Below are positions 46,932 through 53,931 of a stretch of DNA of 64,000 nucleotides, one piece after another (within the stretch, counting starts at the first letter, position 1; every line of letters begins with the position of its first letter). This stretch comes from an uncultured Spirochaetales bacterium. Lineage in GTDB: Bacteria; Spirochaetota; Spirochaetia; Sphaerochaetales; Sphaerochaetaceae. Under the pieces are notes generated by a model. It was not told the DNA's origin and made no database searches. It worked only from the letters and a program-made list of their open reading frames with translations. The position numbers were made by a program, and so were the translations under genes. Where the stretch lies: positions 62,001 through 126,000 of the forward strand of contig CALXXN010000002.1 in NCBI GenBank assembly GCA_944392695.1, read 5' to 3'.

Positions 46932-47723
46932 ATGACCATGAAGAGAGCACCTGTGACAGTCTTCCTACTAGCCGTCATCCTTACGGCCTTGCATGCCGAG
47001 GGGCTCTTCTCCAACTACGACTTCACCTTCTACAAGACCGTGAGCGAGTCACTTGCAATCCAGGACAGCTCGAGCATAGGGCTCGACTACACAGGCTTCG
47101 GCTTCATCGGAGAAAGCAGGACCAACGGCCTTTTCGTCAGGCTTGGCTTCCAAGTCCCCTACTCTACATTGGAGAACGTCCTGTACGGAGAAGACGCCAC
47201 GCTTGATGATGACGACTTCACGCTGACGACAGGCCAGGATGCGGACGTGTTTGAGAACGAATACCGGTTCACCGTCCTGCTTGGTCCCGCGCTCCGCTAT
47301 GTCTGGTCGGCTTCCTTCGATGCCTACGCAGGCATTGGCTTGAAACTCGAAGAAGACATCAGCATGCTCGCAAGCGGACGTGGAGGCTGGAGCAACAACA
47401 GCTACTCGACCTACCTGGCCCTCGATTTCGATATCGGGTTCAAGTTCAACCTGGAGCAGAACACCTCCTGCAGGATCGGCATCTATGGCACATTCGAGTT
47501 GATGAGCTACACTTACAGCACGACATCAATCAATGGCGATATACAGAGTGATACAGACAACGTACACTTGAACATAATCGCAAGCGGCAACAGCCGCAGT
47601 CCTCTTGAAGCGGTGGGCTACATATCACTGGGCAAGACATTCTCAAGCGCCATGAGGCCTGTCTACTACCGCTATGAGACAACCTCCCCTGTGCTTGGAC
47701 AGGGCACTCTTGTGGAAATCTGA
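46932..47723 (+). CDS. Putative outer-membrane beta-barrel protein
   Basis: A 263-residue protein with a signal peptide (MTMKRAPVTVFLLAVILTALHA). It shows barrel-like amphipathic strands: FSNYDFTFYKTVSES, FVRLGFQVPYSTL, EYRFTVLLGPALRYVW, FDAYAGIGLKLEE, STYLALDFDIGFKFNL, CRIGIYGTFELMSYTY. It ends VGYISLGKTFSSAM and a short tail. The pattern is like spirochaete outer-membrane proteins of unknown role. It is a single gene with its own promoter, and ends 74 bases before the next gene. Confidence 0.65.
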   Translation: MTMKRAPVTVFLLAVILTALHAEGLFSNYDFTFYKTVSESLAIQDSSSIGLDYTGFGFIGESRTNGLFVRLGFQVPYSTLENVLYGEDATLDDDDFTLTTGQDADVFENEYRFTVLLGPALRYVWSASFDAYAGIGLKLEEDISMLASGRGGWSNNSYSTYLALDFDIGFKFNLEQNTSCRIGIYGTFELMSYTYSTTSINGDIQSDTDNVHLNIIASGNSRSPLEAVGYISLGKTFSSAMRPVYYRYETTSPVLGQGTLVEI

Positions 47724-48219: not shown

Positions 48220-51200
48220 TCAAAGGTAATCGTCGATCAGGTCCATCTTCCTCATGTCATACTCACGCAGCTGGTTCTCCAAGGTGTCTGGATCGTCGAA
48301 TCTGGCCTCCCTCCTCTTGTTGAAGATGTAGTAGAGGACCGGGGAGAGCAGGAGCGTCAGGAAGGCGCCTGTCGTGATACCACCAACGAAGGTCAATGCG
48401 ATTGGCTGCATCATCTCTGCACCATCCCCTGGGAAGAAGGCCATCGGAATCAGGCCGAGGATTGTCGTCAAGGTCGTCATCAGGATGGGCCTCAGCCTTG
48501 AGCGGGCCGCTGAGAGACAGGCCTCGCGTACAGGGACCTTGTTCCTGACAAGGCGGTTGATGCAGTCGACCAGGACGATGCCGTTGTTAACGACGACACC
48601 AATCAAGGAGATGATGCCTACGATGCTCATGATCGAGAAGTCCTGTCCATAGATCACGTGTATGGCGACGACGCCAATCAGGAGCAGCGGGATCGTGATG
48701 AAGACGATCAGCGGGTTCAACAACGACTCGAACTGGGCGGCCATGACAGCGTAGACGAGGAAGAGCGCCAGGAGGACGACCATGACCAGGGTCGGAATGT
48801 AGTCGGCGAACATGCTCATCTCACCAGACTGGACCAGGGTGACGCCATCTGGGATGACGAGGTGGTCGGCAAGCGCCTGGTCTACCAGAACCTGGACCTC
48901 GCTTGCACTGTGGCCTTCGGCAAGTCCACCTGTGATGTTGTTGACTCGCCTTCCATCCTCACGGAGGATCGTCCTCGGGCTGGAGGTGTACTCGAAGTCC
49001 GCAATCGTATAGAGCGGCACGAGGCCACCATTGCCCTGGACCATCAAGGAGAGGACATCATCAGGAGTCCTGATCGCACCTGTCTCGAACTTGATGTCGA
49101 GGTCGTAGGTGTCACCGGAGTGGACAGCTGTCAACTCACTGATCTGGTTCTGGCTGAAGGCACCGGCGATTGTCGTGGCAATCTCGCTGTTGGAGATGCC
49201 AAGCGACTGGGCGAGTTCCTTGTCGACCTTGAGGCTGAGGCGTGGCGCGCCATCATCAAGGTCGCTGTCGACATCGATGACCTGTGGTACGTACTCGGCC
49301 AGGATCGCCTGGATGTCATTGCTGACCTGCATGGCAAGCTCAGAGGAGTCGGAGTGGATCTCGATGTCGATCGCGTTAGCACCACCCATGCTGTTACCAT
49401 AGTTGAAGATCCAGGTCGCACCCACATCCTCTGCGGCGAGGGGACGGATCATCGAGGTGACTTCGCTTGCCGAGTAGGTCTGCTCTGTGATCTCAGGCAG
49501 TTCTATCGTGATGCTGCCTGTGTTGGAGGAACCGACAGAGAGCGATATGTTCTCATAACTGTCCTCTGGCAATGTCGCCAGGATGCGGTCCTGCATGTTG
49601 AAGAGGTATTCGGCGGTGACGGAGTTGTCAGTACCAGCAGGCAATGTCAGGCTGATGCTGACCTGGTCGTCTGTCGTCATCGGAGGGTAGAGGCTGAAGC
49701 CCATGCGGCTGAACTGGGTGATCGACAGCAGCAGGAGGAGCACCAGGAAGACAATGAGGAGCATCTTATGCGAGAGACAGTAGTCGAGGACGCGGACATA
49801 GCCGTTCTTCAGCCTCTCCTCCGCCCTGGCGCAGAAGTCGTCAATCCCCTTCAGGAGGCGGTTCTTCAGTGGCTTCTGCGTACGTGTGTTGATCTTAAGT
49901 ATGCTGCCACAGAGTGCCGGGACCAGGGTCACGGCGACGAAGAGTGAGCTGATCAAGGAGATACAGACCGTGATGATCATGTCCTGGAACATGATGCCGA
50001 ACATCTCAAGGTCGTTCTTGTAGATCAGCATGGGAAGGAAGACACAGACCGTGGTCAAGGTCGACGCCGTGATGGCGGCGAACATGTTCTTGCTGCCGAG
50101 TATGGCGGCTATAGCGCTCTTCTCACCACTTTGGCGGATCGTGTAGGTGTTCTCCAGGATACAGATCGAGGCATCGACGATCATGCCGATTCCAAGGATC
50201 AGCCCTGCCATGGTCATCATGTTGATCGAGAGGTCGAAGATGGCCATGAGCATCAGTGTGATCAGGATGCAGATCGGCATCGAGAGTGAGATGATCAGCG
50301 TCGTCTTGATGCCACGCAGGAAGAGGAAGATAATCAAGGCCGCCAGCAAGACACCTTGGTAGGCGCTGTTGTAGACCTCGTCCATCGTATCGGAGATCAT
50401 CTGTGTCGAGTCGTTCTGCAGTGTCAACGTGACACCGACAGGCAGCTGTTCGATGATGCCATCGAGCTCATCGTAGACATTGCTTGCGACACGGGTCTCG
50501 CTGTAATCGGACTCGGCTGAGATCATCAAGGAGATGACACGCTCGCCATTGTAATAGGAACGCCTTGAGGAGCTGTCGTCCTCGAGGGCGATCGTGGCGA
50601 CATCACCAAGGCGGACGGTACGGCTGCCATCTGTGTAGATGACAGTGTCCTCGATATCCTCAAGCGAGGTATAGCGGCCATCGAGGACCATGGTGTAGTT
50701 CATCGTACCCGTCTCAAGGTCGCCCATGGTCTCCTGGACCTCGCTTCCCGTGACAGCTGCAGTGACTGTGGAGAGTGGCAGGCCGTAGGAGTAGAGCTTC
50801 GCAGGGTCGACCGAGATGACATAGGTCATCGAGGAACCACCGAAGACATCGACATTGCCAACACCTTCGACACGCTCGAAGAGGGGCGCGATCGTGTTCT
50901 CAGCGATGTCCTGGAGCTCGTTGAGGGTATAGCCATCGCCTGTGACCATGAAGCTCATGACCTGTGAGGAGGATGACATGATGCTGTTCAGGTTCAACAC
51001 CTGGGTGTCCTCGACGAAGTCAGGCAGCATCCTTGTGATGCGGCTGACCGCGGCATGGACATCATCAGCGGCGCTGTCGATGTCAGTACCATAGTCGAAC
51101 TGAAGGACGACAAGGCAGCTGCCTTCTGAGCACTGTGTCGTCATCGTGTTCAGGTTCTCCATCGAGGAGAGCACGGTCTCAAGGGTCTCAGCGACGCTTG

Positions 51201-51381
51201 TCTCGATTTCATCGGGGCTTGCCGAACCGCAGTCGACCATGACGGTGACGACTGGCATCTCGACATCAGGGATCAGCTCGATATCGAGCTGGGGTATGAA
51301 GACGATGGCGATGACGCAGATCAGTACATAGACCATCGTCATCAGCACTGGCCGTCTTACAGACAGTTCAGATAATGTCAT
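48220..51381 (-). CDS. RND efflux transporter, AcrB/MdtB family
   Basis: A 1053-residue inner-membrane pump driven by protons. It begins SVRRPVLMTMVYVLICVIAI and has the AcrB layout: 12 helices in two repeats, each with a large periplasmic domain. In helix 4 the region LILGIGMIVDASICILENTY carries the acidic pair-forming Asp typical of proton-coupled pumps; the second half repeats the layout with IGVVVNNGIVLVDCINRL. It is the third gene of tolC-MFP-RND. The Shine-Dalgarno GGGGAGG overlaps the adaptor stop. The substrate is unknown; the HAE1-like family is suggested. If the adaptor gene is dead, the pump may not work. Confidence 0.93.
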   Translation of the reverse strand: MTLSELSVRRPVLMTMVYVLICVIAIVFIPQLDIELIPDVEMPVVTVMVDCGSASPDEIETSVAETLETVLSSMENLNTMTTQCSEGSCLVVLQFDYGTDIDSAADDVHAAVSRITRMLPDFVEDTQVLNLNSIMSSSSQVMSFMVTGDGYTLNELQDIAENTIAPLFERVEGVGNVDVFGGSSMTYVISVDPAKLYSYGLPLSTVTAAVTGSEVQETMGDLETGTMNYTMVLDGRYTSLEDIEDTVIYTDGSRTVRLGDVATIALEDDSSSRRSYYNGERVISLMISAESDYSETRVASNVYDELDGIIEQLPVGVTLTLQNDSTQMISDTMDEVYNSAYQGVLLAALIIFLFLRGIKTTLIISLSMPICILITLMLMAIFDLSINMMTMAGLILGIGMIVDASICILENTYTIRQSGEKSAIAAILGSKNMFAAITASTLTTVCVFLPMLIYKNDLEMFGIMFQDMIITVCISLISSLFVAVTLVPALCGSILKINTRTQKPLKNRLLKGIDDFCARAEERLKNGYVRVLDYCLSHKMLLIVFLVLLLLLSITQFSRMGFSLYPPMTTDDQVSISLTLPAGTDNSVTAEYLFNMQDRILATLPEDSYENISLSVGSSNTGSITIELPEITEQTYSASEVTSMIRPLAAEDVGATWIFNYGNSMGGANAIDIEIHSDSSELAMQVSNDIQAILAEYVPQVIDVDSDLDDGAPRLSLKVDKELAQSLGISNSEIATTIAGAFSQNQISELTAVHSGDTYDLDIKFETGAIRTPDDVLSLMVQGNGGLVPLYTIADFEYTSSPRTILREDGRRVNNITGGLAEGHSASEVQVLVDQALADHLVIPDGVTLVQSGEMSMFADYIPTLVMVVLLALFLVYAVMAAQFESLLNPLIVFITIPLLLIGVVAIHVIYGQDFSIMSIVGIISLIGVVVNNGIVLVDCINRLVRNKVPVREACLSAARSRLRPILMTTLTTILGLIPMAFFPGDGAEMMQPIALTFVGGITTGAFLTLLLSPVLYYIFNKRREARFDDPDTLENQLREYDMRKMDLIDDYL

Positions 51382-51392
51382 CTAGACCTCCC

Positions 51393-52331
51393 CTACCCGA
51401 CGATGCTGACAGAAGTTCCATCAACGACTGTGCCAGAGGTGATGACCTGGTCACCTTCCGAGAGGCCTTCACTGACCGCGGCCTCCTGGCTGTCAGAGGC
51501 GAGTACGGTGACAGCTGTTTGTGTGGCGACACCATCCTTGACGACATAGACATAAGCCTCCCCTCCACTGCGGTTGACCGCTGATGCGGGGATGACGATC
51601 ACGTCATCATAGGTCGCGCTGACGACATCCATGGTCACGAAGTCGCCTTCCTTGAGGCCTTCAGTCCCACCTACGACTTCGAACTCAAGGTCGACAGTGC
51701 GTGTGGCCTAGTTGATCTGGAGTGCTATATAACTCAGGACCGCCTCATAAGACTGGCCGTTGGAGGCGCTTGTGAACGAAGCACGTCCACCAAGTGCAAG
51801 CTGGCCTGCCCTGTTCGATCCAATCGAGGCATCGACGGAGAGCTGGCGGTCAGTGTAGATGGTCATGATGGGTGTCGCTGTTGAGACAGTCGTACCGACG
51901 AGGCTGTCGATGCTGGTCACGATGCCACCCTGGGCGGCGGTGACAGGACTGGCCTCATAGACCTGGCCTGGGCGGGATGCGTTGACATAGGCGACGACCT
52001 GACCGGCCTCGACACGGTCACCACGCTTCACCAGGACCTCTGTCAGGGTGCCTGAGACCTCGCTCATGACAGAAAGGTCCCCACGGTCTGCGACAACCTG
52101 GCCATAGACACGGGTGAGCTGGTCATAGCTTCCCGATGTGGCGGTAGTAACAGAGACATTGACGGAAGTGTTTTCCTGGGTGCTTGGTGCATAGCTGACC
52201 GCTTCCTCCGGGGAAAGCAGGCGATAGCCCACCACCACGGCTAGGGCGACACAGATCAGCGTCAATATGATTGTGGAAATCTTCGAGACAATGCCCTCAC
52301 GGAGCTTGTTTTCCTTGTCTGACATGGTCAA
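51393..52331 (-). pseudogene. RND efflux adaptor (MFP) with in-frame amber stop
   Basis: A periplasmic adaptor of 312 codons with a TAG at 51708-51710. The frame continues unbroken after it: the residues before (SYIALQIN) and after (ATRTVDLEFEVVGG) join into one continuous beta-barrel domain. CAG to TAG is the simplest cause, as NQATRTV is family-like. The first part has a membrane anchor (about 18-36) and the lipoyl-like DLSVMSEVSGTLTEVLVKR; the tail ends VTSGTVVDGTSVSIVG. The start is TTG 52331, with AAGGAG 5 bases upstream, or ATG 52325. It overlaps tolC by 4 bases. The downstream part could restart at ATG 51638, but a split protein is doubtful. Confidence 0.85.
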
Positions 52332-53665
52332 CTGTTCTCCTTGTATTGTGATTCAAGCGCATCCAGGTCCACGTCCAGGAGGGATGCGAGGTCATAAGCC
52401 GTACTTATATAGCTGTATTTGGCGTTCACGAGTGAAAGCTGCGAGGTGTAAAGGGAGGTCCTGGCACTGTTGAGGTCGGACAGGGAGAGCTGGCCCGCAT
52501 CATAGGCCGCTTTGGAAAGGTCGTAGCTTTCCTGGGCCACGTCGAGGCTGGCCTGGGCGAGCTTCGCATCATCCTCTGCAGCTGATAGCTGCTGGAGGGA
52601 GGACTCGATTCCTGTCATGAGGCTGTCCTTGGCATCCTGGAGGCTGAGCTTGGCCTGGGTGAGGGAGTCCTGGGCGTTCTTGACAGCGACATCTCCTGAG
52701 GAACTGGGTATCCAGGATGAGATGGGGATGGACATCGACACCGTGACAGATGCGTTGTCCCCGTAATTGCGGCCATTGTAGGAGACAGCATCCTTGTTGA
52801 CACCGAAGCTGTACCCCGCGGACACCGAGAGTGTCGGCCAATAAGAGGAGGCCTTGGTGGAGCTGAGTCCAGCACTGGCAGATGCCACCCCTGCCTCAGC
52901 TGTCCTCAAGGCAAGCGTACCTGCGGCGTGATCATCGTAGAGCGTCTGGGCATCAGGGAGGTCCATGTAGGTCACATCCCCCACTTCCTCGACGACGAAA
53001 TCACCTTCGAGTCCTGTCAGGGAGCGTAGTGTGATTTCTGCAAGACGCAGGCTGCCCTGCTGGCTTGAAAGCGAGCCTTGGGCGGAGAGGAGGTTGTACT
53101 TGGCCTGGCTCAGGGCGAGGCTTGTGGCCTGGCCTGCATCGTATGCCGCCTGGACCGAATCCAGTTCCTCCTGGGAGAGCCTCACGTTCTCCTCGCTCAC
53201 ACGCACGGCCTCGTACATGGCACCAAGGTTGAAATAAGCGTCGATGACACTGTCCTCCACGCTCTTCGTGCTTGATTCAGCTGCGAGATAGGCCAATGAG
53301 CGGGCAGCTTCCTTGACATGCAGCGAGGTGAAATCAGTGGATGCCATCTCCCAGTTGATACCCAGGCTGGCACTTCCAGACCAGGAGCCTGACATGTCGA
53401 CAAGGCTGCCGGTGCCACCAACGCTGCCGGTGCCACCAACGCTGCCAGTGAGGTATAGGTCCGGGATGAAGTCCGTGGCGCTGTCATTGCTCCGCAGCGT
53501 CTGCTGCAAGGTGAGTGACGCGCTCTGAAGGTCGATGTTCTTCGCCGCCGCGCTCTCCAAGGCCTCGTCCAAGGACACTGTCCTTACAGCCTCCCCTTCA
53601 GCTGCGGCCAATGGGGAGAGGACGAGGAGAAGGAGAAGGACAGCGTAAAGGGCTTTGTGATACAA
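52328..53665 (-). CDS. TolC-like outer-membrane efflux protein
   Basis: A 445-residue outer-membrane channel protein. The start is TTG 53665: AGGAGG stands 5 bases before it; the longer frame begins inside the leader. Signal: LYAVLLLLLVLSPLAAA. The OEP domains are clear: TVSLDEALESAAAKN, the coiled-coil stretches SQEELDSVQAAYDAGQAT and SYDLSKAAYDAGQLSLSDL, both repeats ending in the NSARTSLY-like motif. Around residue 75-86 the sequence GSVGGTGSVGGTGS comes from an 18-base tandem DNA repeat. First gene of the efflux operon; the 300 bases upstream show no sure promoter. Confidence 0.9.
   Translation of the reverse strand: MYHKALYAVLLLLLVLSPLAAAEGEAVRTVSLDEALESAAAKNIDLQSASLTLQQTLRSNDSATDFIPDLYLTGSVGGTGSVGGTGSLVDMSGSWSGSASLGINWEMASTDFTSLHVKEAARSLAYLAAESSTKSVEDSVIDAYFNLGAMYEAVRVSEENVRLSQEELDSVQAAYDAGQATSLALSQAKYNLLSAQGSLSSQQGSLRLAEITLRSLTGLEGDFVVEEVGDVTYMDLPDAQTLYDDHAAGTLALRTAEAGVASASAGLSSTKASSYWPTLSVSAGYSFGVNKDAVSYNGRNYGDNASVTVSMSIPISSWIPSSSGDVAVKNAQDSLTQAKLSLQDAKDSLMTGIESSLQQLSAAEDDAKLAQASLDVAQESYDLSKAAYDAGQLSLSDLNSARTSLYTSQLSLVNAKYSYISTAYDLASLLDVDLDALESQYKENS
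53405..53440 (-). repeat. 18-base tandem repeat inside tolC
   Basis: Two perfect units GCTGCCGGTGCCACCAAC (plus strand) and the beginning of a third (GCTGCC). They code for GSVGGT units, a likely slippage site; the frame is kept because the unit is a multiple of three. Confidence 0.8.
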
Positions 53666-53931
53666 GATGTCCTCCTCGTAATCGGTCTTGTCTTTGTAGA
53701 CATAAGATGCCAAAGCAATATGTCCGGGAGGCCAAACATGTGAGGAGCTTCATTGTATCTTGGTAAAGAAATATGTATTCACCCGCCCGGGAGCACACAC
53801 AACCCACACATAGGGGCCATGATGGGCATCAAATGACCCAGATGGTGCGCTTCACGCTGTCATGCACGTGTTTACAACTGTGGGCAGTATGGAGGATGGA
53901 GGAAAGAGACGGATCTGAGGGTAAGCAAAAA

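Follow-up and report, generated by a model that had tools for sequence, protein, structure and literature searches.

A recent single-base nonsense allele probably inactivates the adaptor of a BesCAB-type efflux operon in the genome of an uncultured Spirochaetales bacterium. The operon lies in the window, by which we mean the whole analyzed stretch of 64,000 nucleotides, and the three nucleotides CTA at positions 51708 to 51710 of the plus strand give a premature TAG in the adaptor frame on the minus strand. The features discussed below are as follows.

52328..53713, minus strand: TolC-family outer-membrane channel gene, intact, 461 aa.
51393..52331, minus strand: whole adaptor frame of a BesA-type, hairpin-less RND periplasmic adaptor, 312 codons, natural end TAG.
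51708..52331, minus strand: part before the stop, comprising the membrane anchor, the lipoyl domain, and the first part of the beta-barrel (domain order from the available portion of PMC3807786).
51708..51710, minus strand: premature in-frame TAG, codon 208 counted from TTG at 52331 and codon 206 from ATG at 52325.
51393..51638, minus strand: part after the stop, open from a GTG, comprising the end of the beta-barrel region and the membrane-proximal domain.
48220..51381, minus strand: RND transporter gene, intact, 1053 aa.

The frame at 51393 to 52331 contained two stops only, the premature one at codon 208 and the natural one, also TAG, at codon 313, which bears out the claim of the preliminary description that a single TAG interrupts an otherwise open frame of 312 codons. 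We found no second lesion in this frame, of whose two candidate starts the ATG at 52325 is likelier than the TTG at 52331. The sequences before and after the stop were alike in codon-usage score per codon (0.27 versus 0.29) and in GC3 (0.67 versus 0.63), and the premature TAG, at 113708 to 113710 of contig C2, sits well within this contig of 246,592 bases. When the window was scanned for same-frame interrupted pairs, four were flagged and the adaptor was the sole true case; the other three were two separate adjoining genes or lay opposite another gene.

It had also been claimed that the family sequence continues on both sides of the TAG and that the flanking tolC and RND genes are intact, and both claims held. 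TIGR01730 (RND_mfp) gave 117.7 bits on the read-through frame, above the cut-off of 94.9, and matched both separate parts, with 40.2 bits before the stop and 52.5 bits on the 81-aa part after it, neither of which reaches the cut-off. The proteins of 461 and 1053 aa encoded on either side were unbroken and matched their families; the RND gene gave an ACR_tran match of 700 bits and has its own Shine-Dalgarno-like GGGGAGG 5 bases upstream of its ATG. The adaptor frame is located between these two genes, in the BesCAB-type order tolC-adaptor-RND. One relative, the uncultured Spirochaetaceae draft L033, has an identical gene order with all three genes unbroken, and its proteins are 35% (TolC), 42% (adaptor), and 60% (RND) identical to those of the window. 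A plasmid origin of the operon was rejected, as a plasmid collection gave no near match. Elsewhere in the window, an open frame at 46932 to 47723 (263 aa) had no Pfam match at an E value of ≤0.001.

Judged by its sequence, the window adaptor is a hairpin-less RND periplasmic adaptor of the BesA type. Its best solved relative by phmmer was PDB 4kks (E value, 2.3e-15), which we take to be BesA of Borrelia burgdorferi, the entry itself being listed as "Membrane fusion protein." The phmmer alignment to 4kks_A joined the two lipoyl halves with no hairpin-sized insert in the window adaptor. According to the available portion of PMC3807786, BesA likewise has no alpha-hairpin between the lipoyl halves, and the BesCAB pump has the same gene order (channel, adaptor, transporter) as the window operon. 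The premature TAG in the beta-barrel region, however, belongs to the window gene, whereas that portion of PMC3807786 mentions no such stop for BesA.

We then placed the stop among relatives. In a survey of 139 genomes of the family, 82 had an adaptor at an E value of ≤1e-20, with 118 matches summed over genomes, and unbroken copies were present throughout the family. Four of the 118 matches were flagged with internal stops, and on inspection only the window copy was cut in its conserved core. The other candidates for interrupted relatives were rejected: the stops of L124 and L139 are at the natural end, just beyond the match, that of L140 is at the extreme N terminus, and that of L023, a distant match, is near the end of a partial match of 75 residues. 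The alignment took in 44 relatives (30 family-survey loci, 13 loci from another homology search, and L033, whose figures are identical to those of L114, so that the two may be the same genome), drawn mostly from one other genus, g31. L008, which is cut before the stop column, was dropped from the residue count. In that column, a sense residue is present in all 43 relatives that have a letter there (Thr in 22, Ser in 9, Pro in 6, Gln in 2, Ala in 2, Glu in 1, and Val in 1), and the stop is not conserved. Since glutamine occurs in only 2 of the 43, the family gives no indication that the ancestral residue was glutamine. The change from CAG to TAG that the preliminary description considered the likely event would be compatible with the relatives but is weakly supported, given that Thr, Ser, or Pro occupies the column in 37 of 43.

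By identity, the part after the stop gave no sign of decay: the mean difference, after minus before the stop, was +2.6 points for the window protein (43 comparisons), and it was +5.0 (standard deviation, 6.9) among 903 pairs of relatives. Of 20 near-invariant columns downstream of the stop, the window protein departed in 6, the highest count of the 45 sequences (the others, one of which was compared without its post-stop part, had 0 to 5), and this count, just one above that of the next sequence, is a weak hint that constraint has been relaxed downstream of the lesion. A search that included the 139 family genomes turned up no other genome of this species, the best relatives having 42 to 43% protein identity.

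The preliminary description had offered pump loss, suppression of the stop, and a base error as explanations. This is the right set, but suppression is disfavored by the tRNA genes, the pyrrolysyl-tRNA synthetase (PylS) search, release factor 1, and the reading of ABC_tran genes. Infernal placed tRNA genes at 45 sites in the genome, and anticodons were assigned by ARAGORN in 38 loci and the window, which cover all 45 sites and yield 46 genes after removal of repeats. The search for an amber suppressor tRNA that had been proposed earlier was thereby carried out, and none of the 46 genes called, a set lacking tRNA-Ile and tRNA-Ala-TGC, has a CTA anticodon. Those two genes are absent from the calls for this genome (G000), probably because the rRNA operon is missing from the assembly; as the set is incomplete, the lack of a CTA anticodon is not proof. 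Release factor 1 is present (528 bits), and PylS gave only weak matches under the cut-off, as in 12 of 13 control genomes with matches. Furthermore, TAG is the natural stop of the adaptor gene itself and of 4 among the 35 long frames of the window, all 75 ABC_tran matches across the genome are free of internal stops, and RNA folding after the TAG, where a structured readthrough signal was sought, was no better than that of shuffled sequences (z = −0.5). On these grounds, recoding of TAG as pyrrolysine or another residue was rejected, and none of the results points to a novel reading of the genetic code. Readthrough due to sequence context or a suppressor tRNA, which would yield a full-length adaptor, would fit the well-conserved and undamaged frame after the stop, but it is very improbable in view of the above and of the fact that no relative has the stop.

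The main rival to a nonsense allele is an error in the assembly consensus, or a minority strain's base that entered it, with the gene intact in the population; we regard this as rather unlikely. The lesion is a lone one in a frame that is otherwise perfect and has normal codon use on both sides, the undiminished identity after the stop fits an error equally well, and the genome, probably a metagenome-assembled one, is a draft of 39 contigs with 96.49% completeness and 0.7% contamination. On the other hand, this draft has no excess of broken genes, as the ABC_tran matches and the lack of any other interrupted gene in the window attest, and short-read drafts have low consensus error rates. A genuine allele is favored by the position of the stop inside a conserved protein, the sole such interruption among the 118 matches, by the patchy occurrence of the pump (9 of 16 genomes of the genus), and by an intact second adaptor-RND pair on contig C8. 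Nonsense-mutation pseudogenes are familiar from bacteria, and the window frame resembles them in being conserved and otherwise open with one internal stop, although here a base error is a possible alternative.

It is still less credible that the gene has been split, so that translation restarts at the GTG at 51638 or the ATG at 51632 to give two pieces, or so that translation of the downstream RND gene is maintained. An AAGGA lies about 10 bases upstream of the GTG, and the 81-aa remnant retains its RND_mfp score of 52.5 bits; however, by eye the remnant lacks an export signal, family members have ordinary coding sequence in the restart region, a strong ribosome-binding site of its own serves the RND gene, and no other adaptor among the 118 matches is cut by a stop here, although one gene, in G002, falls on two contigs. 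Restart at this GTG is possible but unsupported. We consider it just as far-fetched that the TAG serves, in one species, as a point of low-level readthrough or restart that meters the adaptor relative to the transporter.

With a genuine nonsense allele, ribosomes would stop at codon 206, counted from the ATG, and the cell would make at most a truncated adaptor, of 205 residues. Of the adaptor domains, this product would retain the anchor, the lipoyl domain, and a portion of the beta-barrel; it would be deprived of the barrel end and the membrane-proximal domain, which should contact the transporter; the available portion of PMC3807786 describes the beta-barrel and membrane-proximal domains as interacting with the inner-membrane transporter. 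The RND protein may still be made from its own ribosome-binding site. By analogy with the domain roles given in the same portion of PMC3807786, we infer that the tripartite pump would not function. Provided that the base is genuine, the operon would be a further example of pump loss in a spirochete clade in which the pump is already patchy, and it would call for caution with gene lists that score a pump as complete from two intact neighbors. The finding has no bearing on open questions of decoding. The original observation is correct and its explanation ordinary: the gene is of a known kind, and it carries either a nonsense allele or an erroneous base.

At an E value of ≤1e-20, the adaptor was absent from the remaining 7 of the 16 genomes of the genus, and by these sequence matches the pump appears patchy and dispensable in this clade. 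The window adaptor was closest to those of genus g31 members (42 to 43%), with 38% or less within its own genus except for adaptor fragments of G002 at 41 to 43%. This closeness to g31, together with the patchiness in its own genus, may reflect transfer, paralogy, or repeated loss. In G002, adaptor matches occur on two contigs, L008 (G002:C9:3-575) and G002:C30:33526-33987, with overlapping query ranges, which would represent either a break between contigs or a genuinely split gene. The second RND system of the window's genome lies at G000:C8:38816-42367 (L031; L109), where an unbroken adaptor frame of 358 aa precedes an RND frame of 1079 aa that is likewise unbroken. Unlike the window adaptor, the second adaptor (L031) has, by eye, a hairpin-like stretch.
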